From the NCBI RefSeq assembly GCF_001026905.1, contig NZ_LAQL01000003.1, positions 310,001 to 374,000 of the forward strand: DNA of 64,000 nt. Reading direction: 5' to 3'. The stretch is from Kiloniella spongiae (GTDB lineage: Bacteria > Pseudomonadota > Alphaproteobacteria > Kiloniellales > Kiloniellaceae). The notes beneath the pieces are model-generated. The model was not told where the DNA came from. It did no database searches and was given only the letters and a program-made list of their open reading frames with translations. This document shows, piece after piece, positions 1 through 63,809 of the stretch. The position numbers were made by a program, and so were the translations under genes. Position 1 is the first letter of the stretch, and every line of letters begins with the position of its first letter.

Positions 1-114
1 ATAACGCCTCTTTTACAGCAAAATACGAGATTTCATGGTGGTTTCGGACAGAGGGAAGCCTTTGTTGATCAATTGCCTATATCTTTATTTCAAAAGTTTA
101 CGGACTTGAAATGA
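1..114 (+). CDS. C-terminal end of an unidentified protein (truncated by window edge)
   Basis: Frame 1 is open from the first base and stops at TGA 112-114, giving 37 residues that end in LFQKFTDLK. The stop overlaps the ATG of the next gene as ATGA, the usual sign of translational coupling, so this is very likely the upstream member of an operon with the cyclotransferase-like gene. The fragment is too short to identify a family. Confidence 0.6.
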   Translation: MTPLLQQNTRFHGGFGQREAFVDQLPISLFQKFTDLK

Positions 115-536
115 CAAATATAAGTCCACGAGGAGTTTTCACACGGTCTGGTCTGTTTATGGACAAAGACTTGCTGGTAACAAAGGGAATAACACCTATT
201 TTTTCGCAGAAAGCGCGGGCGGATAACTTTGCTCTCAAAATAGGTGAACGCGCCTCACTTGTGAAAGAACAGGGGGCCAGATCATACGGTGTTGTCATGA
301 CTTTGGAACAAGCGAAAGTTCGTGAGCTCTATGCCGAGGAAAACGTTCAGGAATACAGACCAGAGAAACTAACTGTCGAATATGAAGACGGCATACAGGA
401 AGAAGTCACCTGTTACAACCTTCCCGTCAATCTGATCTGTGGTACCAACAGTGCGTATGCGCAAAAGTTATTGGAACTAACAACTGCCCTAGGATTTCCA
501 GATGATTTTCTAAAACATATCAGGTCTTTTGTTTAG
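111..536 (+). CDS. gamma-glutamylcyclotransferase (AIG2-like) family protein
   Basis: A 141-residue cytosolic protein with the length and motif order of the small GGCT/AIG2-like fold. It has a GLFMD loop near residue 14, where family members carry the substrate-binding YGxxM loop, then ERASLVKEQGARSYGVVM in the core, and a distal VTCYNLP strand. Known relatives cleave gamma-glutamyl amino compounds or act on modified amines; the substrate here is not predictable. The loop reads FTRSGLFMD rather than the common YFAYGS form, so activity may be altered. The ATG overlaps the stop of the upstream frame by 4 bp, and a GNAT gene follows 19 bp downstream, suggesting a small operon. Confidence 0.65.
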   Translation: MTNISPRGVFTRSGLFMDKDLLVTKGITPIFSQKARADNFALKIGERASLVKEQGARSYGVVMTLEQAKVRELYAEENVQEYRPEKLTVEYEDGIQEEVTCYNLPVNLICGTNSAYAQKLLELTTALGFPDDFLKHIRSFV

Positions 537-555
537 TTTTGATGGGGGAAATAGA

Positions 556-1014
556 ATGTTAATAACAAGGCCAATTGAAAACCGGGACCTCGATCTGATC
601 TGTGAACATCGGCATAAGATGTTCCAGGCAAGTGGAAAGCCTCGCGAAGAAGAGCTTGCAGCGATGGATTTGCCTTTTCGTGAATGGTTAGAGCCTCGTT
701 TAAATGATGGGCGCTATTTTGGCTTTGTCGTTGAAAGCGAGGATGAGGCCATTGGTGGTATTGGTTTGATGGTTATCGACTGGCCACCACATCCTTGGCA
801 TCCGCAGGATGATCGCCGGGGATATGTCCTTAATATGTTTGTTGAACCTGATTATCGCGGTCAGGGTATTGCGACGGATTTAATGAAGATGGCAGATGCT
901 GAGTTTCAACGTCGAGGCATTAGCTATGCAATCCTTCACGCAACCAGTAAGGGGCGTCCGCTTTATGAGCATCTGGGCTGGTCTGGAACGACAGAAATGG
1001 CAAAACAGTATTAA
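556..1014 (+). CDS. GNAT family N-acetyltransferase
   Basis: A 152-residue GNAT-fold acyltransferase. The acetyl-CoA binding motif A is visible as YVLNMFVEPDYRGQGIATDLM, with the RGQGIA pyrophosphate loop, and motif B ends in PLYEHLGW. I start it at the ATG at 556, preceded by GGGGGAAA at a good distance, rather than at an upstream in-frame ATG at 529 that overlaps the previous gene and lacks a ribosome site. Substrate unknown. The position 19 bp after the cyclotransferase-like gene suggests co-transcription. Confidence 0.8.
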   Translation: MLITRPIENRDLDLICEHRHKMFQASGKPREEELAAMDLPFREWLEPRLNDGRYFGFVVESEDEAIGGIGLMVIDWPPHPWHPQDDRRGYVLNMFVEPDYRGQGIATDLMKMADAEFQRRGISYAILHATSKGRPLYEHLGWSGTTEMAKQY

Positions 1015-1040
1015 GTGTGTCGGGTATTTTAATCGCTAGA

Positions 1041-1409
1041 TCAATTATCCTGCTCTTCCACCCACTCGGCTTGTCCAGCATCGTTGATACGCACGGTTAA
1101 TTCATAGAGCCCGCCGGGATCGCCGTAGTGGTCGAAAACGAAGGTAAAACACTTTTTACAATTAGTGGGCTGAGGTTCTTTTAACCTTAAATTATGGCCG
1201 TCTTGAACATAGATTTCCGCTGTTTCAACAAAGCTAAAGGCCGTTGCTTGCAGTGCGGTTTTCTCTTCAGGAGATATCGTAGCTGCCGTTGTATTCTGTA
1301 CTGTTTCATCTTCAACCATTTGATCTGGTTGCTGAGAGTAAAGGCCCGCCCCAATCGCGATGATCACGATAATAAGGAAGCTCGCCAAGGTCGTTTTGTT
1401 ATTTTTCAT
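1041..1409 (-). CDS. small exported or membrane-anchored protein, unknown function
   Basis: A 122-residue protein with an N-terminal hydrophobic segment (about residues 9-25, LASFLIIVIIAIGAG) after a lysine-rich start, so it is probably a signal anchor or secreted. The C-terminal part has a CKKC pair followed by FTFVFDHYGDPGG, which could form a disulfide or bind metal in the periplasm. The ATG follows GGGAATGAG. It lies 24 bp after the LysR stop on the same strand and is probably co-transcribed with it. I do not recognise the family. Confidence 0.6.
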   Translation of the reverse strand: MKNNKTTLASFLIIVIIAIGAGLYSQQPDQMVEDETVQNTTAATISPEEKTALQATAFSFVETAEIYVQDGHNLRLKEPQPTNCKKCFTFVFDHYGDPGGLYELTVRINDAGQAEWVEEQDN

Positions 1410-1433
1410 AAGCTCATTCCCAAAAGAAAGATT

Positions 1434-2303
1434 TTACCGCAATTTTTCGCGGATGAGTGTGATAAAATCGCGGACCCGTTGTGGCGGTTTGGTGTCAAAT
1501 TGGTGCAGGGCATAGATCGGGGCGTCACCAAGGGGAGATACTTTGATCAGAGAACTGCTTGCTTCGTCTGATGTTGTCGCGATGTCGGGTAATCTGGCAA
1601 TTCCGAGGCCATTTTGGGTGAGCTTGAGGATATCGGGCAAACTATTACAGCGCGCACGAGGCAGAACTTTAAAAGAAACGCCTTTGGGTAAGGTATAGGT
1701 TACGGGGTTTCCCTGCCATTCATTGGCAATATGATCCCAGTTTTCCAGATCGTTCAGGTTGTTTGGAATGCCGCCCTGAGCCTGGATATAATCAGGGTGT
1801 GCATAGAGACTTTCGCTTAGAGTACCGACCTTGGTCACACGGGCGGTTTGTCCAGCCAGTTTGCCAACACGAATGGCGAGATCAATATGCTCTTCTATCA
1901 ATTTGACAGAGGCATCTTCGGCTAGGAGACGGACTGACATTCGGGGATAACGATCAAGATAGAGCTTGATTGCCGGCGTAACAACAGCGGCGCAAAGCGC
2001 GTGAGGGGCCGTAATGGAAAGAGTGCCCTGTGGATTATCCTTGTCTTCCCATATGCTTTCCAGCGCGTTGTCATAGGCGTACTTTACCGCTAGGCAGCTA
2101 TCATAAAAGCGAGCACCTGTATCTGTCAGGGTCAGGGCACGGGTGCTGCGTTGAAGCAGGCGGGTATTCATATCTGCTTCCAACCGGGAAATGGTCTGGC
2201 TAATGGCGGATTTACTACGCCCCAAACGGATGGATGCCGTGGTGAAAGATCGCGTGTCGACGACTTCTATAAAGGTCAGCATGTCGTGCACATTGGGTTT
2301 CAT
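1434..2303 (-). CDS. LysR family transcriptional regulator
   Basis: A 289-residue LTTR. The N-terminal winged helix covers residues 1-65, with FTTASIRLGRSKSAISQTISRLEADM as its helix-turn-helix (positions about 20-45), followed by LTDTGARFYDSC and a periplasmic-binding-like effector domain. The style (RSTRALTLTDTG) matches the subgroup that usually regulates a divergent oxidoreductase or transporter gene. It is divergent from an NTF2-like gene starting at 2432, with a dyad just upstream at 2308-2323. Effector unknown. Confidence 0.88.
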   Translation of the reverse strand: MKPNVHDMLTFIEVVDTRSFTTASIRLGRSKSAISQTISRLEADMNTRLLQRSTRALTLTDTGARFYDSCLAVKYAYDNALESIWEDKDNPQGTLSITAPHALCAAVVTPAIKLYLDRYPRMSVRLLAEDASVKLIEEHIDLAIRVGKLAGQTARVTKVGTLSESLYAHPDYIQAQGGIPNNLNDLENWDHIANEWQGNPVTYTLPKGVSFKVLPRARCNSLPDILKLTQNGLGIARLPDIATTSDEASSSLIKVSPLGDAPIYALHQFDTKPPQRVRDFITLIREKLR

Positions 2304-2307
2304 TGTT

Positions 2308-2323
2308 TAGTTTTCTTAAACTA
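2308..2323. promoter_or_regulatory. dyad upstream of LysR gene (candidate LTTR box)
   Basis: A perfect inverted repeat TAGTTT-TCTT-AAACTA lies 5 bp upstream of the LysR start codon, in the 128-bp divergent region shared with the NTF2-like gene. Its place suggests an autoregulatory operator; this is inferred from geometry only. Confidence 0.4.
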
Positions 2324-2431
2324 TGTAATCATCTAATTCTATCTTATCGTCTTTGCCTTCTCATGCAATAAAGATCTTGAAACGAACCAGATGGTTCTAG
2401 CGTGGTTAATGCAATTTGTGGAAATGATGAG

Positions 2432-2797
2432 ATGACAACAGATCTAAAAGCAGCGGTTATAAAAGCCAGCGAAAAGTGGAAAGCAGCTTTTAATGCAGGT
2501 GATGCGGCGGGCTGTGCCGCTTGTTACGAAACCGATGCCATTATGGTTGCCAAGCCTTTTGGAACCTTTACCGGGCAGACTGAAATTCAGTCTTTTTGGC
2601 AGAACCTGATCAATGATGGCTTTACGGGGGTTGATTATTTGGGGCCGGAAATTACGGTTCTTGACGAAACGTCAGCTCTTTTGACCAGTGGCTGGAAGAT
2701 GAACAAAGCACACGGGGTTATCACACGAGAGCTCTGGGTGCTTCAGGCCGATGGCACCATGGTACTGCGCGAAGATCATTTTGAAGCCCAGGGATAA
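2432..2797 (+). CDS. SnoaL/DUF4440-like (NTF2 fold) protein
   Basis: A 121-residue protein with the cone-shaped NTF2-like fold: an N-terminal helix (AVIKASEKWKAAFNAGDAAG), then CYETDAIMVAKPFGTFTGQ and an IQSFWQNLI helix, and a strand-rich C-terminus ending WVLQADGTMVLREDHF. Such proteins serve as small-molecule isomerases, cyclases or binding proteins; none can be assigned here. The ATG at 2432 with GGAAATGATGAG upstream is preferred to the GTG at 2402. It is divergent from the LysR gene, a likely regulator. Confidence 0.7.
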   Translation: MTTDLKAAVIKASEKWKAAFNAGDAAGCAACYETDAIMVAKPFGTFTGQTEIQSFWQNLINDGFTGVDYLGPEITVLDETSALLTSGWKMNKAHGVITRELWVLQADGTMVLREDHFEAQG

Positions 2798-62541: not shown

Positions 62542-63099
62542 ATGATGACTAAATCCGCTATTGATGTTTCTATTGTTAAGACCTTGGAAGAGTTAGAGTG
62601 TGCCTACGATATAAGGCGTGAAGTTTTTATGGCTGAAGGGGGAGAGCCGGAAGATGAACAATTTGATGGAAATGATTTGTGTTCTGTCCATTTAATTGCG
62701 CGATGGAACGAGAGAATTTGTGGCACGATGCGAATTCGGATTATCTCTATGGACGAAGGTGGTACGGTAATTTGGGAACGCCTTTCTGTGTTGAAGGAGG
62801 CTAGAGAGAAAAATCCCTGGATTTTTCGATCTTTGCTTTTAAACGCAAAGAGATACACAGAAATGATGGGCCTAAAAACTGTGATTGGTATTGTCGAAGA
62901 TCCAAAGCTAATGCGGTTTTGGAAGCTGTATGGTTTTAAGCCAACCGGGGAAGAGCCTCTTAATTATCGCGGACATGAATATGTGCCGATTAAATTGTCT
63001 TTGGAGACAATAAAGGGCAAGGTTAAAGTAAGGGAGGAAGTTTCTCTGCGACAGGCTGTTCGTGCTTTTCCAGATGTTTTTGCTCAAGCGCAAGGATAA
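62542..63099 (+). CDS. LuxI-like GNAT N-acyltransferase
   Basis: A 185-residue GNAT protein whose layout recalls acyl-homoserine lactone synthases and N-acyl amino acid synthases. R25/R26 and F29 sit in DIRREVFMAEGG; D42 and D45 lie in EQFDGNDLCSVHLIARW (LuxI Asp-x2-Asp); R64 is in GTMRIR, and E79-R80 in WERLSVL stand where LuxI has its conserved Glu/Arg block. The LuxI Trp is absent. Motif VIGIVEDPKLMRFWKLYGFKPTG then follows the GNAT C-terminal pattern. Its product is not predictable. An LuxR-type gene starts 9 bp after its stop. Ribosome site AGGATAAA. Confidence 0.72.
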   Translation: MMTKSAIDVSIVKTLEELECAYDIRREVFMAEGGEPEDEQFDGNDLCSVHLIARWNERICGTMRIRIISMDEGGTVIWERLSVLKEAREKNPWIFRSLLLNAKRYTEMMGLKTVIGIVEDPKLMRFWKLYGFKPTGEEPLNYRGHEYVPIKLSLETIKGKVKVREEVSLRQAVRAFPDVFAQAQG

Positions 63100-63107
63100 A
63101 CATAAGT

Positions 63108-63809
63108 GTGAAAGAGCTAAAATTTGTACAAGATATTCTCCAGGCGGAAACGCCTGGAGAAACGAGTGATCTTATTTTAAATGTGGGTTTTAATGGCTTG
63201 TTCTTTCAACGGTGGTATCCCGATATTATGGATAACTGGGAAGGTCATCTTGCCGAAGGATTTCAAGAGCACTACTACGCAGCACAGATATATCGTTTTT
63301 GTCCTGTTGCTCGAGCTATTCATCAATGGCATCGAAACTATACTTTTGCTGAGGCTCGTCGTTCCATTCTTGTGGGAAATGAACAAGCAAAACTCGCGGA
63401 TAGTTTATGGAAATTTTTTGGAATGGAGGATGGTGTTGTTGTATTCTCAGGGCGTTGTAATCTTAAATCAGCCTTAATTCTGACAACGGATCGTCCTGTC
63501 GAAGAGTTGTATCAAAAATATTCTGGTGTTTTGGCCTTGGCGGCGGATAAACTGGATAAGCAACTTTATCCGGGACATACGTTATTGCGGCAATTGAGCA
63601 GAGAAAACATAACGCTTTCTCCTATCCAGCAAAAAATTCTGAAGCTGCAGATTAATCAGCCTGAACTCTCTAATGCGGCAATGGCTGAAATGTTGGGGAT
63701 TTCCGTGAATACGTTGTTTTCCCATCATAAGAAAATTGCGAAAAAGGAAGGTGTCACCACTTTTACCGGTGCAATAATTAAACAACTTCACAAAAATACT
63801 TCGGATTAA
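63108..63809 (+). CDS. LuxR-type regulator with autoinducer-binding-like N-terminal domain
   Basis: A 233-residue protein. The N-terminal part (about 20-150) has FFQRWYPDIMDNW, HYYAAQIYRFCPVARAIHQWHRNYTF and KSALILTTDRPVEEL, which resembles the autoinducer-binding fold; the usual Asp-Pro is Cys-Pro and the nearby Trp is shifted, so the ligand may differ from acyl-homoserine lactone. The C-terminal HTH (about 168-228) is LSPIQQKILKLQ, NAAMAEMLGISVNTLFSHHKKIAKKEGV. It starts at GTG only 8 bp after the GNAT stop, so co-translation is very likely. AAGGAT lies 12 bp upstream, a little far. Confidence 0.75.
   Translation: MKELKFVQDILQAETPGETSDLILNVGFNGLFFQRWYPDIMDNWEGHLAEGFQEHYYAAQIYRFCPVARAIHQWHRNYTFAEARRSILVGNEQAKLADSLWKFFGMEDGVVVFSGRCNLKSALILTTDRPVEELYQKYSGVLALAADKLDKQLYPGHTLLRQLSRENITLSPIQQKILKLQINQPELSNAAMAEMLGISVNTLFSHHKKIAKKEGVTTFTGAIIKQLHKNTSD

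Follow-up and report, generated by a model that had tools for sequence, protein, structure and literature searches.

Does a GNAT-fold acyltransferase gene followed directly by a LuxR-type regulator gene in Kiloniella spongiae specify a signal synthase together with the receptor of its product? To our knowledge, many LuxR-type receptors are without a known ligand. According to passages of PMC10134790, many luxR solos have uncharacterised synthase genes beside them as possible sources of their signals, and the pair considered here would be an instance of this. The stretch analysed (the window, 64,000 nt of contig NZ_LAQL01000003.1) contains both genes, and its open reading frames bear out the extents and the 8 bp spacing, from GNAT stop to regulator start, that a first-pass annotation had given (Table 1). 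A convergent XRE-type gene follows on the opposite strand; it adjoins the pair in four Kiloniella loci and also adjoins the unpaired regulator of another genus genome (G001), and an XRE-type gene lies near some pairs of the family f112. A sigma-70 scan around the pair returned 1 match, below the number in shuffled sequences (mean 3.3).

Table 1. Features discussed in the text, in window positions unless a locus or residues are named.
Feature	Position	Strand	Remarks
GNAT-fold acyltransferase, candidate signal synthase	62542..63099	+	ORF, ATG start, 185 aa
LuxR-type regulator	63108..63809	+	ORF, GTG start, 233 aa
Regulator, autoinducer-domain homology	residues ~1-165		
Regulator, HTH	residues ~166-230		
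Regulator, pocket residues	F52 Y56 C65 P66 F80 G109		
Inverted repeat TTATTCTAACG/CGTTAGGATAA	62501..62540	+	just upstream of GNAT start, overlaps presumed Shine-Dalgarno
XRE-type gene	63843 to beyond 64000 (L005:2802-3182)	-	convergent with pair
Second module of the window genome (C14 pair)	L021 (G000:C14) 1498-2693		
Ordinary LuxI beside canonical LuxR	L001 (G000:C11) 567-2028		
Unpaired regulator L027	L027 (G001:C19) 1249-2031		
L108 pair	L108 (G161:C15) 1201-2558		clade GNAT overlapping LuxR by 4 bp

The regulator had been described as an autoinducer-like ligand domain joined to a LuxR HTH, and profile comparison supports both halves. With the HTH removed, the N-domain profile matches 29 canonical LuxR N-domains over 148 columns (probability 97.6, E 3.5e-12); 30 column-shuffled profiles reach a probability of at most 0.74. 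Response-regulator profiles, used as further controls, scored 0.10 and GNAT profiles 0.97. These 29 N-domains derive from 30 PF03472 loci, one of which (L100) gave no ORF. An earlier comparison had used 21 canonical LuxRs from 23 profile-matched ORFs, a 141-aa and a 409-aa ORF being dropped; since that set was picked by similarity, the comparison was run again on the 29 PF03472 N-domains and gave the same outcome. The C-domain profile matches the 21 canonical LuxRs at E 1.3e-11, as a LuxR/GerE HTH does. Single-sequence Pfam and NCBIfam searches with the window regulator find mainly HTH models, below cut-off: GerE, which 3 of 13 regulators match at E 0.01, is below cut-off, and Autoind_bind (PF03472), matched by 2 of 13 (best E 0.0019), misses it. 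A PDB profile search returned TraR over positions 22-225 (E 4e-7) together with many HTH-only matches, one of them as strong as TraR. The predicted structure is poor (pLDDT 51.5); all 11 of its Foldseek matches at E<=0.001 are RhlR, CviR, LasR and TraR chains. The TM-scores of these matches are no better than 0.2-0.3, and by Z the highest rank goes to LasR ligand domains (8.5, rmsd 3.8, 115 aligned). By profile homology, the N-domain of the regulator and the LuxR autoinducer-binding domain are divergent homologues.

An excerpt of PMC4235431 gives six pocket positions for TraR (W57, Y61, D70, P71, W85 and G113). Cys65-Pro66 of the window regulator, already noticed in the first-pass annotation in place of the usual Asp-Pro, aligns with the LuxR Asp-Pro, and Cys65 falls at the Asp70 position. 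The six positions read F (20), Y (21), C (21), P (14) or A (7), F (17) and G (18) in 21 regulators of this kind, against W (18), Y (16), D (20), P (20), W (21) and G (20) in the 21 canonical LuxRs. The pocket Cys is therefore a family trait, and the consensus F-Y-C-[P/A]-F-G is not the AHL-sensing motif W-Y-D-P-W-G. We take Trp57 and Asp70 of TraR to make head-group and amide contacts with the ligand. The receptor has lost both residues and retains Tyr61, which contacts the acyl side of the ligand, so that the ligand of Cys-type modules is probably an acylated compound other than homoserine lactone. Within the HTH, Pro185 is invariant (13/13 regulators) at a site that we read from the alignment as presumably a conserved Gly in LuxR proteins.

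What kind of enzyme accompanies this receptor? High similarity to a well-known housekeeping N-acetyltransferase had been named as the result that would speak against a signal synthase, and the similarity is not high: the best PDB sequence match is SACOL1063 at E 4.9e-6. A PDB profile search at E 0.01 returns only SACOL1063 (1.2e-12), YjcF (6.5e-8) and PA0115 (1.4e-4). Single-sequence Pfam and NCBIfam searches list GNAT models, FeeM, an exosortase acyltransferase and the MSMEG_0567 GNAT, all below cut-off; the FeeM model (PF21926) gives 16.2 bits where the cut-off is 27 (E 0.0092). Of 12 family GNATs, 5 match that model with E values no higher than 0.01, the lowest being 3.7e-5. The LuxI model PF00765 matches none of the 12 at E 0.01. 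The predicted structure (pLDDT 68.9) matches SACOL1063, YjcF, FeeM, PA0115 and ElaA among many GNATs, with Z 16.7 for 5jph_A (SACOL1063; rmsd 2.5, 141 aligned) and 16.2 for 1q2y (YjcF; rmsd 2.4, 139 aligned). FeeM chains hold ranks 6-9 in the Foldseek list and rank 43 by Z (13.4, rmsd 2.9, 151 aligned, 16% identity), which is not above generic GNATs; LuxI-type chains are absent among the best 50 structure matches listed, an absence that excludes nothing. On the model and its matches the enzyme has a GNAT fold of the ElaA/YjcF branch, and FeeM-like chemistry is weakly hinted at.

The residues named in the first-pass annotation are all present (R25, F29, D42-x2-D45, R64 and E79-R80) and the LuxI-type Trp is absent, as it had said; the description of their order as LuxI-like did not hold, for they form no LuxI signature. 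The strict acidic pattern E-x-[..]-D-[GN]-x-D..H occurs in 17/20 paired GNATs, 20/29 unpaired relatives, 3/7 ElaA-type proteins and 0/16 LuxI proteins, and a looser form in 18/20, 27/29, 5/7 and 2/16, respectively. An ERLAV-like strand (15/20, 20/29, 1/7 and 0/16 in the same order) is common to the unpaired relatives and not to ElaA or LuxI. Conversely, the LuxI hallmark ExDx[FY]D, present in 16/16 LuxI proteins, is found in 1/20 paired GNATs, there in the C-terminal tail of L073, and the LuxI N-terminal Trp pattern in 15/16 against 0/20. Compared as profiles with the 16 LuxI proteins, the paired clade reaches a probability of 94.6 (E 6.7e-8), the unpaired relatives 96.4 and the ElaA-type GNATs 96.0; a special LuxI kinship is rejected, as GNATs outside the clade score equal or higher. 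The acetyl-CoA P-loop [QR]xxGx[GA] is kept in 7/7 ElaA-type proteins and occurs in 1/20 paired GNATs (L077, off-site in the alignment), 4/29 unpaired relatives and 1/16 LuxI proteins. Because it is also gone in 25 of the 29 unpaired relatives, its absence predates the pairing and does not point to a signal role; it is compatible with membership of the GNAT superfamily. It is no more than possible that the acyl donor is something else than acetyl-CoA.

The 20 paired GNATs form one clade with support 0.988 in a FastTree phylogeny (midpoint root) that includes the 29 unpaired relatives and the 7 ElaA-type proteins. Outside this clade, no LuxR-type neighbour was found at 34, 16 and 10 GNAT loci (60, some genomes counted twice), the last set being the remaining matches of the first GNAT profile search; none of the 7 ElaA-type loci has one. 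The neighbour test used profiles at E 1e-3 on ORFs of >=100 aa within about 1.5 kb on each side (less for L013). Profile scores alone do not fully separate paired from unpaired GNATs: with a seven-row profile, three paired ones (G161:C15, 98.4 bits; G266, 81.9; G096, 64.1) fall short of the highest-scoring unpaired GNAT (106.4), and the clean gap seen with a later profile is partly built in, because that profile was made from paired GNATs. In the genus g92, three loci (L063, L069 and L070) carry tandem pairs of related GNATs with no LuxR neighbour.

Is the pairing itself conserved? An orthologous pair with 80-89% identity is present in three other genomes of the genus Kiloniella. Nine genus genomes, that of the window included, comprise four with the orthologous pair, one with that regulator alone (G001) and four (G002, G003, G005, which is 77% complete, and G008) with neither the regulator nor a clade GNAT; G002 has an ElaA-like match at E 9.6e-4. 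The window genome harbours a second, diverged module at C14, 26-32% identical to the first and flanked, by eye, by what we take to be fliI/fliJ-like genes on one side and a LysR-type gene on the other, with counterparts in G001 and G007. In all 20 GNAT-regulator pairs examined the GNAT precedes the regulator and both genes share a strand; 12 pairs overlap or abut, while the gap is 8-23 bp in 5 and 124-215 bp in 3, the overlaps being upper estimates because the start was taken as the first ATG/GTG/TTG. The genes flanking the pairs differ between families, as judged by eye.

More widely, the regulator profile passes E 1e-5 in 9 of a sample of 385 class genomes, 2 being HTH-only matches and 7, our own included, full-length; all seven full-length hits have a GNAT match directly upstream. 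In a sample of 398 phylum genomes a full-length regulator occurs in the window genome alone, five others matching only from about residue 109. Among 14 genomes of family f112, ten have an adjacent pair, three have neither gene, none has a clade GNAT only, and one (G443) has the regulator only, as one unpaired and one decayed copy (L083). Two regulators, L027 and L079, are intact without a GNAT, and both keep the Cys. L027 shows an apparent tandem duplication around the invariant Cys, as if decaying after loss of its partner. Viral contigs hold no relatives of either protein and plasmid records no relative of the regulator; the window GNAT matches two remote GNATs among the plasmid records, from Gloeothece and Aureimonas, and the L108 GNAT matches the same Aureimonas one, whose 9 annotated neighbours include a LysR but not a LuxR.

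Trees of the GNATs and regulators of 19 Cys-type pairs have 11 of 16 splits in common (Mantel r 0.912, 0/5000 permutations as high), an agreement that is partly ordinary shared species descent. In both trees the window pair falls beside the G355 pair and the C14 pair beside the G438 pair, so the two modules of the window genome are different sub-types, each beside a module of another taxonomic family. These matching groupings indicate that modules were inherited or moved as units across taxonomic families. The survey of related genomes that the first-pass annotation had suggested thus finds the pair co-conserved, and the synthase-then-receptor layout it had recognised is both conserved and co-inherited.

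One pair differs from the Cys-type modules in its receptor. The GNAT of L108 lies inside the clade of 20, and its LuxR partner (260 aa, PF03472 E 1.3e-18) has an intact W-Y-D-P-W-G. No other single observation argues as well for the product being the receptor ligand as this clade GNAT beside a textbook LuxR, although it is one instance. An ORF near L108 that we take, by eye, to be ParA-like is the sole hint of a plasmid for this locus, since megablast of L108 against plasmid records gave no match.

Upstream of the pair, the four orthologues have in common a conserved 40-nt stretch that precedes the GNAT start and covers the presumed Shine-Dalgarno; the DNA further upstream is not conserved. 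The 11-bp inverted repeat was detected in the window and L004 and not, at equal settings, in L003 and L002; RNA folding gives a stem in all four (-14.0 to -16.9 kcal/mol, z -3.05 to -3.71, or z -2.0 to -2.7 for the same stems with other ends). The hairpin is not a general feature of pairs, as the mean fold z over 20 GNAT starts is -1.29 with positive values for L077 and L080; 21 canonical LuxR starts average -0.15, three of them below -2. For these folds five starts were shifted by hand, those of L074 and L075 to the codon preceding the start; at L081 the upstream DNA was too short. C14-type modules have a different hairpin (z -3.3 in L020 of G007, -1.4 in L010, -0.8 in L021). A 30-nt pattern of the element, allowing up to 3 mismatches, has one match each in the window genome (G000) and G007, at the pair itself, and none in G001, G004 and G006; having missed the known copies in the latter two genomes, the pattern is too stringent for other sites to be ruled out. 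The element may be a translational hairpin or an operator.

Taken together, we regard the pair as a real, co-inherited enzyme-receptor module, undescribed as far as the papers listed in a search of the open-access literature show, and most likely for chemical signalling. With moderate confidence, we read the two genes as self-contained: a GNAT-derived synthase would make an acylated small molecule and its neighbour would sense that product. The GNAT, a member of the ElaA/YjcF branch that would have been recruited to this role independently of LuxI, would acylate a small amine-bearing acceptor with a thioester as donor, its product would bind the N-terminal domain of the adjoining LuxR-type protein, and the ligand-bound regulator would act on transcription through its C-terminal HTH. 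Homology, pairing, gene order, co-inheritance and the pocket motif are the observations on which this reading is built; from them we infer an acylated product that serves as the ligand and leaves the cell. A further step, which we propose tentatively and would not yet back over its negation, is a LuxI-independent quorum-sensing-type system in which an ElaA/YjcF-branch GNAT, recruited independently of LuxI, serves as synthase for LuxR receptors that mostly have an invariant Cys for the AHL-anchoring Asp, with a new acylated signal and possibly a thiol contact. Against a signalling module count the best matches of the GNAT, which are presumed acetyltransferases, the two unpaired regulators, the decayed copy in G443, the narrow range and the poor regulator model. 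Of the acyl-signal system first suspected here, the altered-pocket receptor, the conserved layout and the distinctness from luxI/luxR stand, and the special kinship with LuxI falls.

A tight, co-inherited operon would be equally expected if the regulator were a metabolite sensor controlling an adjacent acyltransferase that modifies or detoxifies the metabolite; the ligand would then be the substrate and there would be no cell-cell signalling. ElaA/YjcF-type proteins as the nearest solved relatives of the GNAT suit this alternative, as do flanking genes that differ (by eye) between families. We consider it unlikely nevertheless, for the sensor domain is homologous to AHL receptors and one clade GNAT, that of L108, is partnered with a LuxR whose AHL motif is intact.

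It is quite improbable that the GNAT acylates the regulator itself, for instance at the invariant Cys65 or a Lys, making the pair a post-translational switch. The agreement of the two trees would fit such a switch, and so would the presence of Cys65 in all 21 regulators, even where Ala follows it (7/21); however, Cys65 occupies the alignment position of Asp70, a ligand-contacting residue of LuxR proteins that the L108 partner also has, and the unpaired L027 and L079 keep the Cys. We give just as little credence to reading the GNAT as a highly divergent LuxI whose product is an ordinary AHL. The profile match to the 16 LuxI proteins and the AHL motif of the L108 LuxR point that way, but unpaired and ElaA-type GNATs match LuxI equally or better, the hallmark and Trp patterns are missing (apart from the L073 tail), and PF00765 recognises none of the GNATs searched. 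Chance or hitchhiking neighbours with no functional link, which a narrow distribution and differing flanks might suggest, are barely credible in a survey that already contradicts them, with the clade paired 20/20, no LuxR-type neighbour in the loci examined outside it and two diverged modules in one genome.

Found here only next to LuxR-type genes, the GNAT clade offers a concrete enzyme together with a concrete receptor that could report on it. A product that proved to be a new acyl signal would extend the signal classes by one and account for the Cys pocket, and AHL-like signalling would then have arisen more than once from the GNAT fold.

How does the module compare with known systems? Among the papers listed in a search of the open-access literature, outside which many subscription papers and all preprints lie, none dealt with a GNAT paired with a LuxR regulator or with a LuxR carrying an Asp70-to-Cys change. 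D70 changes listed in the excerpted text of PMC4338825 are to S, I, G, A, W, E, R, Q and N; neither that paper nor PMC10134790, both on LuxR solos, contains the words GNAT, acetyltransferase or cysteine, and no such pair is described in the portions available of PMC6000730, PMC8776678, PMC9654057, PMC11580390 and PMC4602140.

On the enzyme side, ElaA, YjcF, PA0115 and SACOL1063 provide the best sequence and fold matches and partly share the acidic motif; the ElaA-type proteins differ in keeping the P-loop (7/7) and having no LuxR-type neighbour (0/7). We take all four to be acetyltransferases. The N-acyl amino acid synthase FeeM shares the GNAT fold and weak Pfam FeeM matches (5/12), and is set apart by the low identity in the structural match, a Z not above generic GNATs and a window GNAT under the Pfam cut-off. 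PpyS of Photorhabdus is, as far as we know, not a GNAT. Excerpts of PMC4235431, PMC10134790 and PMC4414361 describe PpyS/PluR and DarABC/PauR of Photorhabdus as non-LuxI synthases with LuxR-type receptors of altered motif, the PluR and PpyS genes being adjacent and DarABC a three-gene operon. PluR and PauR keep Asp70 (T-Y-D-Q-C-S and T-Y-D-Q-Y-I in the excerpt of PMC4235431), where the receptors described here have Cys.

With LuxI/LuxR the module shares adjacent enzyme and LuxR-type receptor genes, a homologous receptor domain and, in L108, the W-Y-D-P-W-G receptor; it differs in a GNAT without LuxI hallmarks and in the F-Y-C-[P/A]-F-G pocket. The first-pass annotation was right that this is not classic luxI/luxR: a PF00765 search of the window genome at E 0.001 finds C11 only and not this GNAT. 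At C11 an ordinary LuxI (PF00765, E 7.5e-46) sits beside a canonical LuxR, and with that separate system in the genome the GNAT module would be an additional channel. By analogy, the module would resemble LuxI/LuxR in its working and PpyS/PluR in concept, with an enzyme that is no LuxI and, in the Cys-type, a receptor without the AHL motif.
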